Positions 22,360-41,480 of a stretch of DNA of 64,000 nucleotides are shown here, piece after piece. The position numbers and the translations under genes are program-made. Source of the stretch: Undaria pinnatifida (lineage: Eukaryota; Sar; Phaeophyceae; Laminariales; Alariaceae); assembly GCA_012845835.1 (NCBI GenBank), contig JABAKD010000030.1:10329805-10393804 (forward strand), given 5' to 3'. Numbering within the stretch: position 1 is the first letter of the stretch; the number at the start of each line of letters is the position of its first letter. The notes under the pieces were generated by a model, which was not told where the DNA came from, ran no database searches, and was given only the letters and a program-made list of their open reading frames with translations.

Positions 22360-23132
22360 TACCGCAGCCATCTTCTTCGTGTTGTTTTGTCCGTGCAACA
22401 GGTATCTGTTCCTCTCCGGCACGTATGTTGTTCTTCTCGCAGCTTTTCCTTTCTGATCTTCTTGCACATCACATTCTTCAGAACGCGTGTCGTTTGTTTT
22501 GCTCTGTTTTCCTTTTAATTTTCTATATTTGTTTCTTTTGTCATTTTTTCTTTTTTTTTTTCGTGGTCTGGCTTGTTCTGTTGTGTTCTCGTACCCGGTA
22601 CGATAGCATTTCACTTGCTGTACCTTGACGAATTGCGGCTGTTTGGTATACTCTGTTTCAGAGCAGTCTGTGACCACAGGATTTGTATCTCTCTAGGCGA
22701 GCTCTAGGATGAAGAATCGGCACGGACTCTGGGTGTACTGATATGGTTGGGTAGAAACAACGGTTTAATGCGAAGACAAAAGACACATCAGTGCATCCAC
22801 TGCTGTTCGTGCTGATTCTTCATCCTCGAGAGATACAAATGATGTGGTCACAGACTGACACAGAGTAAACCGAACACAACAGTCGCAATTAACCAAGGTA
22901 AAGAAAGGTAAATGCTAGCGTACCGGGTACGATAACACAACAAGCCAGACCATGAAAAAAAAGAGGAAAAAACTAAAAACAGCAAACAGAACAAAACAAA
23001 CGACACGTGTTCTGAAGAATGTGGTGCTAGAAGATCAGAAAGGAAAGGCTGCAAGAAGAACAGCATACGTGCTGAAGAGGAAAAGATACAACAATGCCTG
23101 TTGCACGGACAAACTCACACGAAGAAGGTAAC
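22360..23132. repeat. Large foldback element (arms about 350 bp, short loop)
   Basis: The sequence from about 22360 to 22722 recurs inverted from about 22800 to 23132. Shared words include TCTTCTTCGTGT, TTTGTCCGTGCAACAGG, CAGCACGTATG, TTTCCTTTCTGATCTTCT, ACATTCTTCAGAACRCGTGTC and ATTTGTATCTCTC. The loop is about 75 bp. A third partial relative is at 35530-35610 (CTTCATCCT...AGAGATACAAAT...TGGTCA). Substitutions are spread along the arms, so this is an old element, not an assembly fold. Confidence 0.8.
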
Positions 23133-25803
23133 TGCCGGGGTTAGATGGAGGTGTAGCAAATCAAATCCACATGACACATGATCATATACAGCAGAATTGT
23201 GATGTTACACACCCCGGACAATACACTATTGAATATGCCTATTGAATGTCAATAGGTTGGGGTATTGCATATCGATACCTATTGATGCCTTCGATAGGTA
23301 TGCGGATTTGTCGATCGATACCCATTGCTTGGACCAATAGGTCTAGAGAAATTGGTAAAATAGGCTATTGTTTTTAAGATAGGTGTGTGAATCAGTCTAT
23401 CGATACCTATTTCTTCGACCAATAGGTTCTGATACATCGGCACAATAGGATATTGTTCTTACAATTGGATCACTCTGTCGATCGATAGCTATTACTGTGA
23501 TCAATAGGTACGTGAAAGTGTCGATCGATATCTATTGCTATGACCAGTAGGTACAAAGCCCTGTAAAATAGTCTACCATGTAGAGTACGCCTGTTGGTTT
23601 GTCCACAAGCTGGTGTATCGAATATTGTAATAGAGTGTCGGTATAGCGGGCAATAGATTCGGTAAGATAGTCCACAGAGTTACGGCCTATTGGCCACAAG
23701 AAGATTCTCTTAGAACGGAATATTCTTAGTGAAGCGGATAACCCGTAGAGAATAGCTAGCTTATACCACAACAACGTTCTCGGTAATGGAACGTCCTCCT
23801 CTGGATAAGATAGGTAGAAGTAAGCGCGTTAAGCGCTCATGGGAATATAGAACACCTAGGAGAACGTTCCTTGTACGTTCCATAGGTAAAGGTCCAAAAG
23901 AGAGCACAGCAGCAATGCCAGAGGGTGAAGCGAACTCTGTGAGCCTCACCCCACCCCCATGCTCTCACTCCTTCCCCTTTCCTGTCTCCTTCGAGCTTCT
24001 CATCGCTCAACGCCAGTAATAAGAAATCATCAAAGAAGAACCGGTGCTGTCTCCAAGCGAAGCTTATACCCCTGCGTCCCGTCCCTCCCAACATCCGGCA
24101 CCACGACTCCTTTACAATTTGGCGTCGTCGGCAGGACTCGAACTACTACCGCGCCGACGATACCAGAACATGGACCGTGCCTTACAAGCGGCATCCTAAC
24201 TGTCGACGACGCGTCGTTCACGACCGAAGTACTAGTCCACAGCGGACCTACCGCCGCCAAACGCTGCAAACTCGTGGCGCTGCTCGACACAGGCTCCCCT
24301 CAGTCGTTCATCACCGCCGCCGCCGTGGAACAACTGAAGGCATCCCGGTCAGCAACGGATGAGTGCGAGCGACAGAACTTACCTCGTTCATGGGGAGGTT
24401 ATCCGGGGGGTCCGCGGTGTCATGTGCTGGCGAGGGCGAGTCGTCGGAAGGGTGTTGCAGGGGTGGGTGTCGGCGATTGTTGGTAATGTCGCCGTGTGGC
24501 GTTGTCGGGGGTAGAGTCAGGTCCGATCGGGCGGTGCTGTCTATGGCCTTTCTTTTAGCGATCTGCTTTATTAGTGAATAGCCCTATCCTTTGAGTTTAG
24601 GCCTCATTACGAGGTGTGGGGGAATCCATAGCCTCATGCGTTTGTTTCGAACAGCCGCATCTTCGACCTCCTTTCCCGGTCTTTTAGGATGAACTTTGTC
24701 GTCATCTTTCGACCGTCTTGAGGTCTGCATATACGACTATTCAGGGTGGGCTAATGTAATAGAGTGTCGGTATAGCGGGCAATAGATTCGGTAAGATAGT
24801 CCGCAGAGTTACGGTCTATTGGCCACAAGAAGATTCTCTTAGAACGGAATATTCTTAGTGAAGCGGATAACCCGTAGAGAATAGCTAGCTTATACCACAA
24901 CAACGTTCCCGGTAATGGAACGTCCTCCTCTGGATAAGATAGGTAGAAGTAAGCGCGTTAAGCGCTCATGGGAATATAGAACACCTAGGAGAACGTTCTG
25001 TTTGTTGCTCCCTACAAAGCGTAGAGGGCTTACCCGTTGAGCTGATAATAGTGGGGTAGTGGAGTCACCGGTATGAAGACAAGTATAAGACGAACAAATA
25101 TATAATACGTTGCTCCAAGCCAAGGCGCAGCGTGGAGTGCGCTCGCCAGGAAGAAAGGCGGATAAATAGGCGGAGTATTTCCACCATCCCGATATCCCGC
25201 TATCATGTAGCCAACTTATCACTGGAAACCCCTACAATACTCAACCGTCATCATATCCGCATCATATCCAAGCATACAATCAACAGCCTCCCTGCTTCGT
25301 AAATGATACGTATGATGCTATCTTGTCATATCATCAGGGTAAAACGATTCAATGAAAATTACGGTCAATCAATATCCTCCCAGTACCTCCGTGACAAGAA
25401 AGAAAGATTGCAACACCATAGTCCTTAAAAAGCACTCCATAAATCTAGAGATACAGTTTAGGGACAGTATTCAACATCAATCATCACGAACCTAAGATCT
25501 AAGTCGTAAAATCCCAAGTCCAAATACAAAAACTCAAATCCGAAATTCATAGACCGAAAACTCAAATCCGAAAGCTCAAACATCGGCCATATAATCAGCA
25601 TTCAGCCTTCCTTATAAAACGGTTGTCAGCTCCATAGAACAGGGGTGCCAACAAGTGTGATTGGACAGCAGTCTCAAAGCTCACTTTCGAATGAGACAAA
25701 CGCCTCCCGGCTGGGTACATACTACGAGGTTCCCCTTCGGGAGGTGGACACGTGCCTCCCGGGGGCGACGCAAGTTGAATGACTACAACTGATGATGAAG
25801 TAT

Positions 25804-26457
25804 TTATGCAGAAGGTGTATATCGGAGGGATGCGTAGTGGTAGTGGAAAGAATGTGGATAATATAAGATATCACAGACATTTAGAGGAGGAGGGTTGGGA
25901 TATTGCTGAGGCTCGGTGTGATAAGTTATTCGAAAGTCCACTCCGTATAACTGCGTGGCAGCAATTAATTCTACGTTTGTAGCATATGCGTAAGGCTGTG
26001 ACATGAAGAGGAGATACTCTTCAACACTCGAATATGTAGTAGGTTGAGATCCAGCGACTTCCACAAGTTCTTGATTTGCTCCAGCTAGGATGCTGTCGTG
26101 GAAAGTGTTGAAACCTGATCCTGGGATAACGGTGTACAAATTGGTTGTGATGTGGGCAATAATATGTGCACGGACGATGTGATGTAAAGCTGGGTTGTTG
26201 TGCACACGACGCGAGATACATCTTAATAAACATGCACCATCACCAATCTCGGGAATAATGGACCATTGACCAGAATTGTTATTGTTGCCGCTGTTGTTGT
26301 CTTGATCATTTTCGCTGTCTGATGGGTTTGTACTGCTGTCGCTGCTGTTAGAGAAATCATTGGTGTCAATTTGTTGTGTGTTTTCTGTGCCCAGTATTTT
26401 TCCCCGCGCGCAGTTTATACCGATGTTTGTTGCCGATATGGTCTGTTGTGTGCACAT
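25804..26457 (-). CDS. OTU-domain cysteine protease-like ORF
   Basis: This is 217 codons, uninterrupted. A Ser/Asp/Asn-rich N-terminus (about residues 30-65) is followed by an OTU domain of about 145 residues: IGDGACLLRCIS (Asp and catalytic Cys), a central TTYSSVEEYL / Y-rich segment, and a closing CDILYYPHSFHYHYASL, where the His-aromatic motif of the OTU catalytic triad belongs. OTU proteins cleave ubiquitin linkages or act as viral/transposon proteases. It lies in the nested retroelement between the RNase H region and the left LTR, in the same sense as pol. Whether it is cargo or a later insertion is not clear. Confidence 0.75.
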   Translation of the reverse strand: MCTQQTISATNIGINCARGKILGTENTQQIDTNDFSNSSDSSTNPSDSENDQDNNSGNNNNSGQWSIIPEIGDGACLLRCISRRVHNNPALHHIVRAHIIAHITTNLYTVIPGSGFNTFHDSILAGANQELVEVAGSQPTTYSSVEEYLLFMSQPYAYATNVELIAATQLYGVDFRITYHTEPQQYPNPPPLNVCDILYYPHSFHYHYASLRYTPSA

Positions 26458-26983
26458 CGTTACTTTTGCTTGAGTTGTGTTGCTACTTTATATCTCTTTA
26501 TACAGGTTTCGCTACTGCTGTATGGTAACCACCGTGTCAATTGTGAGGGAGAACTCACAGTAATGACATAGTTCCCGTCGTTGCTCATATGACAATAAAC
26601 TCTCAGAGTCTATGGACTACGTGCTGCTTGCTGGTGGTGCTCTATTGTAAAACCGCTGTGTATGTTCTTTTGATGAGAGGAAAGGTCTTGTGTATTTATT
26701 CTCCTCGGTCCATCCAGAAAAAAATCCCGTTCTCAATAAAATTTGATTTTTTATGATCTATATATTATTGCCGCTCTCTGCGGTTGCTTGCTGCTGCTGT
26801 GATCGTAGACAGTTTATACCGATCTTTGTTGCCGATATGGTCTGTTGTGTGCACATCGTTACTTTTGCTTGGGTTGTGTTGCTACTTTATATCTCTTTAT
26901 ACAGGTTTCGCTACTGCTGTATGGTAACCACCGTGTCAATTGTGAGGGAGAACTCACAGTAATGACATAGTTCACGTCGTTGC
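26411..26983. repeat. 174-bp direct repeat (26411-26584 and 26810-26983)
   Basis: Both copies begin CAGTTTATACCGAT and end GACATAGTTC(C/A)CGTCGTTGC, with about three or four differences over 174 bp. The left copy overlaps the first 16 codons of the OTU ORF; the right copy stands alone. The roughly 225 bp between them is unique in the window. It looks like a recent segmental duplication of the OTU gene's 5' end and upstream region. Confidence 0.85.
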
Positions 26984-27235
26984 AGCGGGTACATATACAC
27001 CGCGCCCGCGTCTAGCAGTGCGGGAAAATTCTCTCGCAAATACATTTTGATGCCACCCCGATGTACGTGCGAGGACTAAAGTTCCACCGTGTGTGTAGTA
27101 GACGTATTTAAGCCTGACGATATGCCTATATTTTAGGCTCTAAACCAAATTAAGCCCTATCGTGTTTTAAATGTCTAAAAAATAGGTCTATTTTATCGAC
27201 CTAACGACCACGGCAGACCACGGTGAGATGTGGAT

Positions 27236-27296
27236 CTTCCCAAAATATGCACTTGGGCACATTTTGGCCCAAGTGCATATTTGAAGCAATTTTCCG
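27236..27296. repeat. Perfect hairpin around ATATGCACTTGGGC
   Basis: AAATATGCACTTGGGC, then an eight-base loop (ACATTTTG), then GCCCAAGTGCATATTT: a 16-bp perfect stem. Its function is unknown. It lies in the unexplained 26.98-28.83 kb part of the nested element, where I see no other supported gene. Confidence 0.7.
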
Positions 27297-28983
27297 AGTA
27301 TTTTCCAGCAAACAACAGCATTTTAGACGACAAAAGCTCGAGGAAACATCAGACACTCTGCAGCAGCAGCACAGCACAACACCCACGCAGTAATTGCAAC
27401 GCTCAACCTAGCAAGCCGCTTGGTGTATCCCCAACCCGGGTTGATCAACCTGCGTGTACAACACGATCAGAAACGTTGGCGGTGGTCAGAGGCGACCCAC
27501 TCTCGTGGAGCGGCATGCCTCTACGTACTATTACTTGAAAAGGAGTCCTTGTTTATTCACGAGGATCGAGCGCACACACAACACAACACACCACAAAACA
27601 AAACAACACAGCACAACACAAAGACAACCAGCACCCCAACAGCCAACCCAACTACAGCACAACTAGCCGGTGGAAAACGCCCGCGAGACTCCTCCTACCC
27701 TGGCGTTCTCTGCGGTCAGAGAACTGGGACTCTGACATAGTTCGTCGCGCGCTCGTGCTCCTGCTCTCTCGTCCTGAGAGGCTGTAATTTTTCGATGACA
27801 CATTTTTTTTGTTTGGTTTTTGTGCCCGACGTAGCGCATGGCCGGAGCTGCTGCTGCAGTTTACAACCCTGTTGCCTCTTTCCCGCGGATGCCTACATTT
27901 CGAGGGTGGAAATTGAACCGGGTTGAGGGCCAGTCCTGCTGTGCTGCTGTACTGACTGCCACACTGAGGCACACCGAAGGCGGCAGACGCCTGCGAGGTA
28001 TCCTACATATGAAGCGAGTATGGAGTACGAAGCACTCAATGTTTTTGCCAGGCACCAGTTATTTGTTTTGGCCGTTTGTTCAAGCTCGCACAGCATGGGC
28101 AGGGGAGGGTCTTTCTCGAAGTTTCCACCCACTCATGTGCTGACTCATGACATAAATCCTCGTCTTGCCATCTGCGTCTGGAGTAGTGCAGAAATATCAT
28201 AGTCTATTTTCAAGTAGTTTGATCTTTCCTCGGCTTTTCTTTTTATGCGTACTGAAAGAGACCACTATTTCGAGTTTCAGACATTTTTTGGTGTTTTTTT
28301 TATGCGTTTAAGGTCGAAGTATCGAATGGCCTAGCTCTTCCAGTTGGAAGTACTTAAGACCTAACCTCGAGGCTTGAATATGTTTAGTGTGTGGTTTCCC
28401 GGGGACAGAAGCGTCTCATACCCCGCAAAATAGAGCCAGTCTCGGCGGCTTTCCGCGGCCATAGCTCGCGCCACGGACGTCCCATGAGCCCGGCACACGG
28501 CTGATAATATACCGACGGGTAGTCTGATCGCATTGCAGAAGCAAGCACACAAAAAAACTCTGCGCCGGCGGAGAAAAAGGGACGGACTAGGCAAAAAAAT
28601 CAAAATGGTACATATGCATCAAAAGCCATTCAAATTCCAAACGCTCAAATCCCGAGAAAGATAATGCCATACTAGACAACGCAATCGTGAAAACAGTAAT
28701 GTTTCAAAAACATAGAAATAGTTACTTGCCTCCCTAACTATTAATATTAATACCATGCACTGTTTAAAAGTACGAAAATCCAGCTAGTATATGTAGAATA
28801 ATCCGTCAAGAAACAATTCAAATCAGCTCGCGAAAAAGTTAGTCGCCCTCGGGTTCAGACGCATCGAACTCGTCGAGTTTGAGACCTTTTTCCTACTTGA
28901 CGAGCCAAAATCCTCTCAAGTGGCCAAGCGAATGCTTCCCAGCACAAGCGTTAACAGGTGGGCGTGACCCCTCCTTGCAAGAT

Positions 28984-29280: not shown

Positions 29281-30962
29281 GTAGAAAAAAACGAACCTAG
29301 CGTACTAAATCATGGCATATTCCACCGTTCTCCCAAAATCAAATGTTCATCACAAAATCCTGGTGAAAACGAAAAACTGGACCGGCAAGTGCCTTCGTCA
29401 GGAAGTCTGCGTGTTGCTGCTCAGACTCTACGGCGACAATGTCAAACTCTCCCCTGAATACAAGCTCACGGAGGAAGTGGTGCCTAATGTCGATGTGTTT
29501 CGAATTCGACGTGCACACCGGGTTATGAGCCAGGTGCCTTGCCCCCTTGTTGTCCTCAAAAACCGTGATGCATGCGGAACCAAGGCCAGGCAAAATAAAA
29601 CTCCTCACGTACCGCAAGAAAATCACCTTCTTGATGGTGTCTGCTAGTGCTACGTACTCGGCTTCTGTGGTCGAAAGCGTCACACACTTTTGAGTCCTCG
29701 AAAACCAGCACACGCATGCCCCTGCGCACATAACAGCCCCACCGGAAACCGACCTCCTATCAGTGGCATTGCTGGCGTAGTCTGCATCCGCATACGCAAC
29801 CAGCTCCAGTCCCTTACCTCTCTGAAAAAGTAATGCCAAAATCACTCGTGAAAAAAACATACTCTAAAATGCCAACCGCTGTCTTCCAGTGTATCGCCCT
29901 GGGCGAGTTGGTGTACCTGGCTACCGCTCTCACTGCGTTCGCAATATCCGGACGTGTCTGATTGGCAAGCCACATCAAGCACCCTACCAGTTCACGGAAA
30001 GGCCAGTCACCCTCAGGTTCAGTCGCATCGAACTCTTCGAGTTTAAGGCCCTTTTCTAACGGGTTTCTTCTGCCCGAGCTAACGCCGAACTTCAAAGCTG
30101 TGTTTTCAGCGAAAGCTTGCTGCGAGATCGTTAAAGTGCCAGCATCCCAATCTCTAGAATACCGGCAGCCAGCATACCACCTTAGCTCGCCAAGGTTGTT
30201 AATCGGCACTAGGCGGTTCAAGTCTTTGCAGAACTGATCGCATCTAGCCTTCCGTCCCACTGCGAAGATATCGTCCACATGAACTACTGTTACTATGGAG
30301 ACAGTTCCAGACTCGACCAAGCGCAAGACACACACGTCTGCTAGACTCTGCTCAAAACCAAGACTCTTCATGTGCGATAGCAAGTGGTTGTGCCACGATC
30401 TCGACGCTTGTTTCAAGCCGTAGAGACTGCGGTTCAAGCGTACTACCTTACCAGACATCTCACCACAACCCCGGGGTAGCCGCATAAAAACATCTTCGTC
30501 TAGGTTTGACTGAACAAAAGCCTGCTCTGCATCGAAAAGACAAAGATCCAAATCTAACTCGCAAGCAATGGCACCCAACAAGCGGATGCAGGACGCCGTA
30601 GGCGTCGGGGCAAATGTCTCAAAGAAATCGATACCTTCACGCTGCCCGCAACCCCTCGCTACCAACCTCGCCTTAGCCCTGGTCGCAAAGCCAATCTCAT
30701 TCGATTTTCAACCGTACACCCACTTCGCCGAAAGAACATTCAGGCCGATTGGTTGCTAGATCGCGCCGAAAGTACCCGCGTTCTCCAAGCCACCATATTC
30801 TTTCTCCATGGCCTGAATCCAGAGATCAGAATATTCGTCGGTGAGCGCTTCCGAGTACGAGTTCGGCGTCAAGAGTTCACTCACCGGGCGCGAGGGTAGA
30901 GGAGGGTTCTTGTGAGGTGGGGCTTGATGGTACAGTACATGACCAATACCCTCCCGCGCAGC

Positions 30963-31759: not shown

Positions 31760-33894
31760 ATTATCGTGTTTTTGATCCCTACAAAGCGTAAAGGGCTTAC
31801 CCGTTGAGCTGACAATAGCGGGGTAGTGGAGTCACCGGTATGAAGACAAGTATAAGACGAACAAATATATATTACGTTGCTCCAAGCCAAGGCGCAGCGT
31901 GGAGTGCGCTCGCCAGGAAGAAAGGCGGATAAATAGGCGGAGTATTTCCACCATCCCGATATCCCGCTATCATGTAGCCAACTTATCACTGGAAACCCCT
32001 AAAATACTCAACCGTCATCATATCCGCATCATATCCAAGCATACAATCAACACGTTCCTTGTACGTTCCATAGGTAAAGGTCCAGAAGAGAGCACAGCAG
32101 CAATGCCAGAGGGTGAAGCGAACTCTGTGAGCCTCACCCCACCCCCATGCTCTCACTCCTTCCCCTTTCCTGTCTCCTTCGAGCTTCTCATCGCTCAACG
32201 CCAGTAATAAGAAATCATCAAAGAAGAACCGGTGCTGTCTCCAAGCGAAGCTGATACCCCTGCGTCCCTTCCCTCCCAACATCCGGCACCACGACTCCTT
32301 TACAATATCGATTAACTGAATATCGATACGTATTGTAACTTGTAATAGGAGGGTGAAATTGTTGACGGATGCTCGTACCTACTTATTTGCTTAATATCTA
32401 GGGGAATTGATATGGGAATTGATAAGATTGGTACCGTCTAAAAAAAAAGTAGTGATGGGTGTTTCTGGGTTGTTCAACAGCAGCAGCAGAGATCGACTGA
32501 AATCCTCACAAACCCATCGATTAAAACGTATGTTATTACCAGGTATTATCGTACATCTGCTGTTTTGAAACTTAAGGCAAGGTCGAGGTATATATTGTTA
32601 TATAACAGCCAAGGCATTCATTCAAACAATAGCCTGGGGTATACGGTACGTATAGGAATGTTCTCGTAAGCAGTACGAAGGTATTAGTTTACAAGCAGTA
32701 CGACGTAGGTATCGATCGAAACCCTTGCAAATATTATCATATTTATTCAATTGTCAGTAGGTATCGATTGATACCCTTGAGAACCTATTAAATTGGGCAA
32801 TGGGCATCGATCGATACCCTTGCAAACCTATTACATTGAGCAATAGGTATCGATCGATGCCATCGCACACCTATCACTTTAACCAATATGTATTGATTGG
32901 TGGCGATAGAAAGGTATTGTTCGAACGATAGCCTGTTGGGTGTCATTTTTAAATTATGTTGGTGCCCGAGATACCTATCGATGTACACCGTCGCAAGCAT
33001 ATCGGTCGCACAATAGGCTATTGTGGTCACTGCCCTAATCCTATTGTTGCTTACAATACCAATCGATAAACCTCAAAGATGAGCTATTGTGCTCCGCGAT
33101 AGGTATCGACCCTCATAGTTGCCGACCTATTGTTGGCCCAATCGCCTATTCGATAGGGTATTATCGAGGGTATAAGAAGGAACAGAACGGCACACAAACA
33201 AGTCGCCCTGAAAAACTGCATGCTTGAGCTTCGCAACGCACACACATAATAGTAATCACCATCTTGTTGAGACCATCCATCTTGAGCTTAAGGCAGAACA
33301 AGGACACACAGCGTCGTTTTCGGGGATTCTCCGCCGGGCTGGAGGGGCGTGCGGCGTGGATGATGAATGGCGAACGAGAGTTGACTGTACCTAGACGGGG
33401 CTGTCTTCGAGCGCATTTGCTCTCCAACACTGAAACAATAAAATGGCGAAAGGTCTACGTGCCGATACCTGTCACCCAACACAGTAGACTGGTGAAAGGT
33501 CTGCCAATACCTATCGTCCGAAACAATAGAATTGTGAAAGATCTATCGACACCTATTTTCCTAAACAATAGGTTTGGTGAAAGGTATATCGATACCTACC
33601 GGTTAGAAACAACAGGTGTCGTCTAGCAGTCCCAATAGCATATCGCACGATTAGGAATGCTCTGGAAATTCGTATTAAAAGCTATCTGTTTCAACGATAG
33701 ATTCGATATTGCTTGTCAATATAATATTGGACGAACAACAGATCAGTGGAGGTGTCAATCGATACCTATTGCAGGCCACACTAAGCTTCAAAAAGCGCCT
33801 ATCGATACCTATCACAAGCAACAATAGGCCTTCTATTGGCATAGGATCCTATCGATTGCCTGGAACCTATTGTCCAGGGTGTGGTGATATATAC

Positions 33895-40982: not shown

Positions 40983-41480
40983 TTATGCGTTGTAATGTAC
41001 AGATACGTAGTGCATGGAAGAGGGAAAGTATAAAACATTGCAGGTGTTGTTGGTAGGAGGAGGAGGGTACGGTTGACCCGAAATAGAAACCGAAATGTTG
41101 ATGTTGTAGGCAAGCTGTGCAGCAATGATTTCGATGTACCCGGCATTCGCGCAGGGGTTGACCATGAGTTCAAGATAATGTTGAGCAGACGAGTACAAAG
41201 TAGGAGGGGCGTTAAGTATTTGTACGGGTTCGATGCCTATACCAAAGGAAATGGCGTCGTGGAAAGATAATTTTGCATTTGGCAGTTTGTCGTGCAGGTG
41301 CTCTTGAATATATTGTAGGATGTTGGCGCGAATTGTAGCGTGTTGTTCAGGGTTACCAAAAACTTTGCGTGAAATGCATCGAAGCAGGCAAGCTTCATTT
41401 CCTAGTTCGTTAACAATAGTCCAGGGATTGCCAGGAGGTGGCGTGCATGGTATACTGCACAAGACGGTAAGGTACCGCAC
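40983..41480 (-). CDS. Second OTU-like cysteine protease ORF
   Basis: 165 codons, or about 150 if it begins at an acceptor (CTTGTGCAG) just inside. It parallels the 25804-26457 ORF over its whole length: WTIVNELGNEACLLRCISRKV against WSIIPEIGDGACLLRCISRRV, a matching helix with TLYSSAQHYLE, and the end CNVLYFPSSMHYVSVHY with the expected His. So it is an OTU-fold paralogue, clearly diverged from the first. No LTR or inverted ends are seen around it. A repeated host or transposon gene family is the likely source. Confidence 0.7.
   Translation of the reverse strand: MRYLTVLCSIPCTPPPGNPWTIVNELGNEACLLRCISRKVFGNPEQHATIRANILQYIQEHLHDKLPNAKLSFHDAISFGIGIEPVQILNAPPTLYSSAQHYLELMVNPCANAGYIEIIAAQLAYNINISVSISGQPYPPPPTNNTCNVLYFPSSMHYVSVHYNA

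Follow-up and report, generated by a model that had tools for sequence, protein, structure and literature searches.

The 64,000-nucleotide stretch of the Undaria pinnatifida genome analysed here, termed the window, contains an intact open frame of 217 codons with DGAC and His motifs, as the original prediction had reported. The frame lies on the minus strand, and its motifs read G72-D-G-A-C76 and H207-Y208 (Table 1). We take C76 and H207 to be the catalytic Cys and His of an OTU cysteine protease. In an alignment of six OTU ends from this genome, G72, A75, C76, H207 and Y208 are invariant, and D73 and G74 are altered in the relic near 41 kb alone. Scanned by itself against Pfam, the frame matched OTU at an E-value of 0.039 and 14.9 bits, below the curated cut-off of 23.3, and against the PDB it matched OTUD1 at 0.0045. 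A six-OTU profile searched against solved structures matched OTUD1 (5.6e-8) and OTUD5 (1.4e-6), and all six profile members matched Pfam OTU at E-values up to 1, the best being 8.4e-6. None of 500 base-shuffled versions of the surrounding element contained an ATG frame of at least 217 codons. An AlphaFold model from a two-sequence alignment had a pLDDT of 33.5. The profile matches and the invariant residues indicate that the frame encodes a divergent OTU-type cysteine protease. A viral source was considered and rejected, an IMG/VR scan with the frame's protein as query having returned no relative.

Table 1. Positions in the window of the OTU frame, the element that carries it and associated features.
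Feature	Position	Strand	Remarks
Element, read as a whole non-autonomous Helitron, 2,896 bp	25723..28618	minus	5' end 28618, 3' end 25723; bounded by a sharp stop of inter-copy homology
5'-side host flank	28619..28622	minus	Reads TTGA
First copy of 174-bp segment	26810..26983	minus	Repeat pair D2; frame from its ATG stops after 32 codons
D2', 174-bp segment	26411..26584	minus	TATA-like box, 5' leader, ATG and first 15 codons, fused in frame to OTU
Stand-alone OTU frame	25804..26457	minus	ATG at 26457, stop ends at 25804; 217 codons
Cys76 codon	26230-26232	minus	Within OTU frame
His207 codon	25837-25839	minus	Within OTU frame
3' hairpin	25732..25765	minus	Stem ends 9 nt inside the 3' end
3'-side host flank	25714..25722	minus	Reads GTATGTACC; RTAC part of target motif
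OTU relic at 41.0 kb, assigned to another Rep-Hel-OTU Helitron family	40983-41480	minus	Protein comparison

The frame lies within an element whose limits emerge from comparing the window copy (L001), used as reference, with 29 other OTU loci. In 28 of the 29, similarity breaks off at one common 3' end, the sequence of the remaining one (L014) turning to Ns there, and the 5' end is shared in 11 of the 12 ten-kilobase regions that were fetched; the exception, L037, shares with the window element the OTU and 3' part only. Flanks differ among copies and the 2.9-kb element is what they have in common. For one copy, the insertion site was tested by fusing the two host flanks, 150 bp from either side, and using the product as a genome-wide query: the joined flanks ran contiguously through the junction in all 40 scored hits (of 386 candidates), and the best match aligned 270 bases to 270 query bases at 98%. 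The window insertion was therefore precise, into another repeat and without target-site duplication or loss, its exact breakpoint being ambiguous by one base.

The original prediction had placed the frame in a retroelement nest, a fair description given a copia-type reverse transcriptase frame (RVT_2, 1.1e-30; 29814-30665, minus strand) 1.2 kb from the element. This proximity is what would recommend reading the OTU as cargo of the surrounding retroelement, a reading that we consider barely credible: copies elsewhere have the 2.9-kb element in common, not the flanks, and the flanking repeat occurs uninterrupted elsewhere. Retroelement cargo was thus rejected on the copy boundaries and the empty site, in favour of a transposase domain within a Helitron that inserted into another repeat. 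Other repeats were seen in the window. A 247-bp direct repeat at 98% identity (23623-23869 and 24752-24998), together with matching pieces at 31767-32306, near 32 kb, perhaps represents the repeat ends of the host retroelement; nested inverted-repeat arms at 22364-23135 have the look of a foldback element; and a 188-residue plus-strand frame at 46852-47418 matches the C-terminal dimerisation region of hAT transposases (Pfam, 1e-11).

The element begins with TGCATATG and ends with CCTTGTA, which in the window copy reads CCTCGTA. No exact inverted match of at least 8 nt was found between the 200-nt stretches at its two ends. The hairpin near the 3' end, at -12.9 kcal/mol over 78 nt, folds moderately better than shuffled sequence (z -2.05), 8 of 200 shuffles being as stable. 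The element lacks the canonical Helitron 5'-TC and CTRR-3' termini and A^T target; because other Helitron subtypes also lack these features, this bars the description 'canonical Helitron' only.

The identity of the element was revealed by its coding relatives. In L037 (contig C48), a 1,118-codon frame joins a Rep domain (PF14214, 9e-35), a PIF1 helicase (PF05970, 9.7e-20) and, at its end, the OTU. An HAH motif is visible in this frame, which we presume to be the HUH Rep motif; no AP endonuclease match was found in L037, the frame of which is internally deleted. In C43, RepHel parts 97% identical to those of L037 are followed by the OTU, the frame shifting near its C-terminus, and both L037 and C43 have the same 3' end as the window element. 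L038 (C22), which has both ends in common with the window element, carries a helicase fragment and the OTU between them and is the only coding copy to which both ends are tied. The OTU associated with RepHel is not restricted to this family. With the 41.0-kb OTU as query, stop-free OTU hits fell in the same open frames as Rep hits in six further cases (1673, 1673, 1669, 1651, 1444 and 1291 residues). An additional Helitron family with a 1,713-residue open RepHel frame was found at 34 places (L052-L062 and others), 30 of them with identical score, and is possibly active at present; the one copy read has a C-terminal OTU with GDGAC and HY. Overall, these comparisons show that the OTU is a C-terminal domain of several Helitron transposase families in the U. 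pinnatifida genome. OTU ends only 38-43% identical to the window frame retain the Cys and His. Ratios for most within-family RepHel pairs range from 0.36 to 0.84, exceeding 1 where silent change is almost nil, and between families dN is 0.31-0.43 with silent sites saturated. Long-term retention of the OTU is thus visible at the level of the coding Helitrons.

The window frame is, very probably, the OTU C-terminus of a Helitron RepHel transposase, left behind in an internally deleted, non-autonomous copy. The assignment to RepHel follows from the relatives, which carry the OTU in one frame behind Rep and PIF1 and have the same 3' end; RepHel itself is absent from the window copy, as expected for a non-autonomous one. 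The Rep and helicase parts are deleted, and the 174-bp ATG-bearing segment (D2') is fused in frame to the OTU part. With both ends and the 3' hairpin kept, the element could be mobilised by RepHel protein made elsewhere, through the rolling-circle steps of nicking and strand displacement, and would insert precisely, without duplication, after the RTA of RTA^N5-6 RTAC sites. We infer both the rolling-circle steps and the mobilisation in trans, and likewise that the OTU is a deubiquitinase that helps the intact transposase.

The original prediction had also considered a host or transposon gene that landed at this locus recently. The transposon part of that suggestion stands, the gene belonging to a Helitron; the host part does not. 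Capture of a host OTU gene or host cargo by the element would be in keeping with the known capacity of Helitrons for gene capture and with the location of the OTU at a deletion junction. We nevertheless regard it as extremely unlikely, since several diverged families carry the same OTU at the C-terminus of their RepHel frames and, in L037, L038 and C43, the sequence at the junction continues into RepHel, which marks the domain as the transposon's own. A host gene was accordingly rejected as the source, the OTU being part of RepHel frames.

The second OTU copy, at 41.0 kb, had been taken as a paralogue of the window frame. It is a genuine OTU relative (41.5% identity over 142 residues), and it reads GNEAC in place of GDGAC. 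Its closer kin lie elsewhere: over 141 residues it shares 84% identity with one genomic OTU, and its identity to the OTUs of the six long Rep-Hel-OTU frames is 61-70%. A search of the 64-kb window with three RepHel queries gave no Rep or helicase piece. Protein comparison indicates a relic of a different Helitron family, and not a second jump of the window element.

To gauge the abundance of the window family, we searched the window's own assembly (511 Mb, 68 contigs). Among 5,098 first-look candidates of the protein search, the best 150 were scored, all at 92-100% identity, with 134 lacking and 16 containing an internal stop; these being the best-scoring copies, intactness is overstated. DNA searches gave 585 first-look candidates with the element's first 320 bp and 612 with an OTU stretch, 40 being scored in each case. 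The exact 25-base 3' end occurs 414 times genome-wide, a count that leaves out the window copy (one base off), and its reversed-pattern control 0 times. These hundreds of copies, with shared ends and differing flanks, bear out the suggestion of an OTU family moving through this genome. RepHel copies near the window family are few by comparison: among 50 scored of 721 candidates, L037-like RepHel at 95% identity or more was found at six places (C48, C30, C43, C28, C33 and C22). At L033 and at C18:3836306, the 3' end of one copy is joined directly to the 5' end of the next, the head-to-tail arrangement that rolling-circle copying would be expected to leave. Tandem or closely spaced copies were seen at L033, C18:3835568-3838458 and C29:5849195-5853893.

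Comparison with RepHel copies identified three junctions that join D2', which to judge from its letters may act as a promoter, to the OTU part. Class 1, that of the window, is in frame (INC|ARGKIL; 34 exact copies); class 2 carries extra bases and is out of frame (107 exact copies); and class 3, to go by its sequence, reads in frame (I|SARGKIL; 96 exact copies), D2' being damaged in the single class-3 copy read (the second copy in L033). In L038, D2' is fused in frame to a helicase piece, and in C43 the 611 bp read immediately upstream of the frame contained no D2'. Of the class-1 copies, 24 are intact end to end, 2 carry a stop, 1 is partial and 7 fall outside the best 150; the corresponding figures for class 3 are 39, 10, 1 and 46. 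Class-2 lengths were measurable for the 26 of 107 copies on contig stretches with listed 3' ends: 17 measure 349-355 bp between junction and 3' end, where a complete OTU part spans about 700 bp, 8 are complete and 1 is longer. Of the 40 scored 5'-end copies, 16 are located on stretches of this kind, and 15 of these could be assigned a 3' end, giving nine elements of 2,130-2,157 bp, one of 2,340 bp and five of 2,618-2,874 bp. Copies lacking half of the OTU region have thus also spread.

Whether the frame is under selection was assessed in 22 of 30 OTU loci, those collinear with L001 upstream (L010, L012, L013, L014, L023, L026, L027 and L029 were left out); the 30 were chosen by best protein score and so lean towards intact copies. 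Singletons in the OTU frame comprise 32 replacement, 1 stop and 16 silent changes, that is 33 replacement-or-stop against 16, where the spectrum of 107 non-coding singletons from the same copies predicts a replacement-or-stop fraction of 0.73 (one-sided p 0.23). Mutation density per site is alike inside and outside the frame (0.0756 vs 0.0722). Outside the frame, 5 of 22 distinct indels are multiples of three; in the frame-holding alignment there are 4 distinct indels, three of them multiples of three and one at the far end, a contrast biased by the choice of loci. In a wider set of 34 sequences (28 of the 30 loci, without L003 and L023, plus L037-L040, the second copy in L033 and C43) there are 42 replacement-or-stop and 20 silent singletons, which with site ratios of 460.7 to 130.3 gives an uncorrected ratio of about 0.6. 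An apparent gap in singletons, at codons 67-111 in the 22-copy set, became smaller with 34 sequences; it may reflect how candidates were chosen and was set aside. On balance we interpret the pattern in the sampled copies as young copies decaying neutrally, and weak selection may act as well.

The claim that the frame is cargo under selection is consequently not supported: singletons and density fit neutrality, and half-OTU copies spread. Neutral decay across copies, one of the two outcomes named in the original prediction as speaking against it, is what the 22 sampled copies display. A more specific version of the selection argument would have the stand-alone frame kept as a helper, a deubiquitinase supplied in trans by non-autonomous elements that protects the transposase or counters host silencing. 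Its appeal lies in the two junction types that fuse D2' in frame (class 1 with 34 exact copies, class 3 with 96), the end-to-end intactness of 24 of 34 class-1 copies, the persistence of the catalytic residues across Helitron families and the ratio near 0.6 in the cruder 34-sequence count. We consider it unlikely all the same, as singletons fit neutrality against the copies' own non-coding spectrum in a set of 22 whose choice, if anything, favoured intact copies, the out-of-frame junction occurs almost as often (107 exact copies vs 34 + 96), and 17 of 26 measurable out-of-frame copies spread without about half of the OTU region. A selected-looking open frame can simply be a young deletion derivative.

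The insertion sites of the copies are themselves informative. Right flanks were readable in 33 of 35 copies (L014 and L040 were dropped), and TAC begins at offset 5 (17 copies) or 6 (12 copies) in 29 of the 33, whereas offsets further out average 0.73 each. This TAC is preceded by G or A in 28 of the 29 and followed by C or G in 25. Left flanks end in RTA in 10 of 11, the window's own ending in TGA. The insertion target is thus RTA^N5-6 RTAC, and the target flanks are not T-rich. The element's own start, TGCATATGTACC, has the same layout as the target with a longer spacer. The near-palindromic GTA N5-6 TAC layout at the 3' junction resembles a recombinase crossover site, so that, with TAC at +5/+6 in 29 of 33 right flanks, mobilisation by a tyrosine recombinase or another non-Helitron enzyme was considered, the OTU-RepHel copies then being bystanders. 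We judge this very unlikely. At the 11 left and 33 right junctions seen, the left core belongs to the element and the spacer on the right to the host, and the 3' hairpin, the lack of duplication, the tandems and the RepHel coding are as expected of a Helitron; empty site, junctions and hairpin all disfavour a tyrosine-recombinase element. Under the preferred Helitron reading, we tentatively propose, with somewhat more doubt than confidence, that Rep may recognise a target in two parts, RTA^N5-6 RTAC(C/G), arranged like the element start (RTA^TGCATATGTACC), such that donor and target nicking share one code, and that the lineage repeatedly reduces its transposase to the OTU tail behind an ATG-bearing segment, freeing a putative deubiquitinase.

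As far as the relevant passages of the literature describe them, other targets are different: A^T for canonical Helitrons (PMC4778049, PMC13286980), TT for published Helentrons, TTTT^T/C for Helitron2, and for Fusarium elements a position between TNAT and A, or T according to the figure legend (PMC5148889). OTU domains have been published in Helitrons and Helentrons, with the proposal that deubiquitination aids the transposase (PMC4067079, PMC9741609, PMC5148889, PMC2836005), as have non-autonomous deletion derivatives; according to PMC9741609, transposon OTUs are untested for activity. Less usual here are the OTU-only derivative, no family of which we found reported in open-licence papers, and the target motif RTA^N5-6 RTAC.

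The closest parallels are the Helentrons with their HINE and DINE-1 derivatives (Thomas et al. 2014, PMC4067079), which, in the account given there, have in common with the present element a rolling-circle RepHel, an OTU-like protease, common deletion derivatives, a 3' hairpin and no target-site duplication. Unlike the Helentrons of that account, the present family gave no AP endonuclease match in L037, its ends share no inverted repeats of 8 nt or longer, its target is not T-rich, and the OTU is fused to the RepHel C-terminus, where Helentrons have an additional ORF; the HINEs described lack coding capacity, whereas the derivative here keeps the OTU frame. Neither the asymmetric or subterminal inverted repeats of Helentrons and Helitron2 nor their T-rich target were seen in our element. 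Also similar are Helitrons, including two studied from zebrafish, whose frame contains a deubiquitinase-type domain, be it OTU, VTD or both (PMC9741609), but the VTD-bearing ones are described with a C-terminal AP endonuclease, of which L037 gave no match. The Proto-Helentron of Phytophthora infestans resembles the present family in a Helentron-like RepHel without endonuclease, and differs, as described, in its 5'-TT and CTAG-3' ends, A^T insertion and extra proteins in separate ORFs (PMC4067079). Helraiser (PMC4778049) and wheat Xuan-Feng (PMC13286980) resemble it in a hairpin some 10 nt before the 3' terminus, in lacking terminal inverted repeats and in precise insertion without duplication; they have 5'-TC, CTRR-3' and A^T where our element has T...TTGTA and RTA^N5-6 RTAC, and the pertinent passages mention no OTU. 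Some Ginger1 families also carry a C-terminal OTU on the transposase, but the enzyme is unrelated, being DDE integrase-like with terminal inverted repeats (PMC2836005).

These data recast what looked like a puzzling protease within a retroelement as a transposon family that can be counted, in which the OTU tail is kept across diverged RepHel families and is not needed in cis by the derivatives. Retention in RepHel combined with dispensability in cis would fit the published idea that the intact transposase benefits from deubiquitination. The target motif, if it holds in more families, would make the target choice of Helitron Rep directly testable. Two further observations concern the RepHel copies. 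In L037 (oriented 1501-1776) and L063, a GC-rich frame (VGKRCRQCKRDDPTILE...) behind a possible intron immediately precedes the RepHel frame, and is either an extra ORF or a captured host exon. Moreover, Rep matches of many Helitron families crowd on contig C30 from 0.8 to 26.9 Mb, most densely from about 13.7 Mb, a region that may be heterochromatic or non-recombining.
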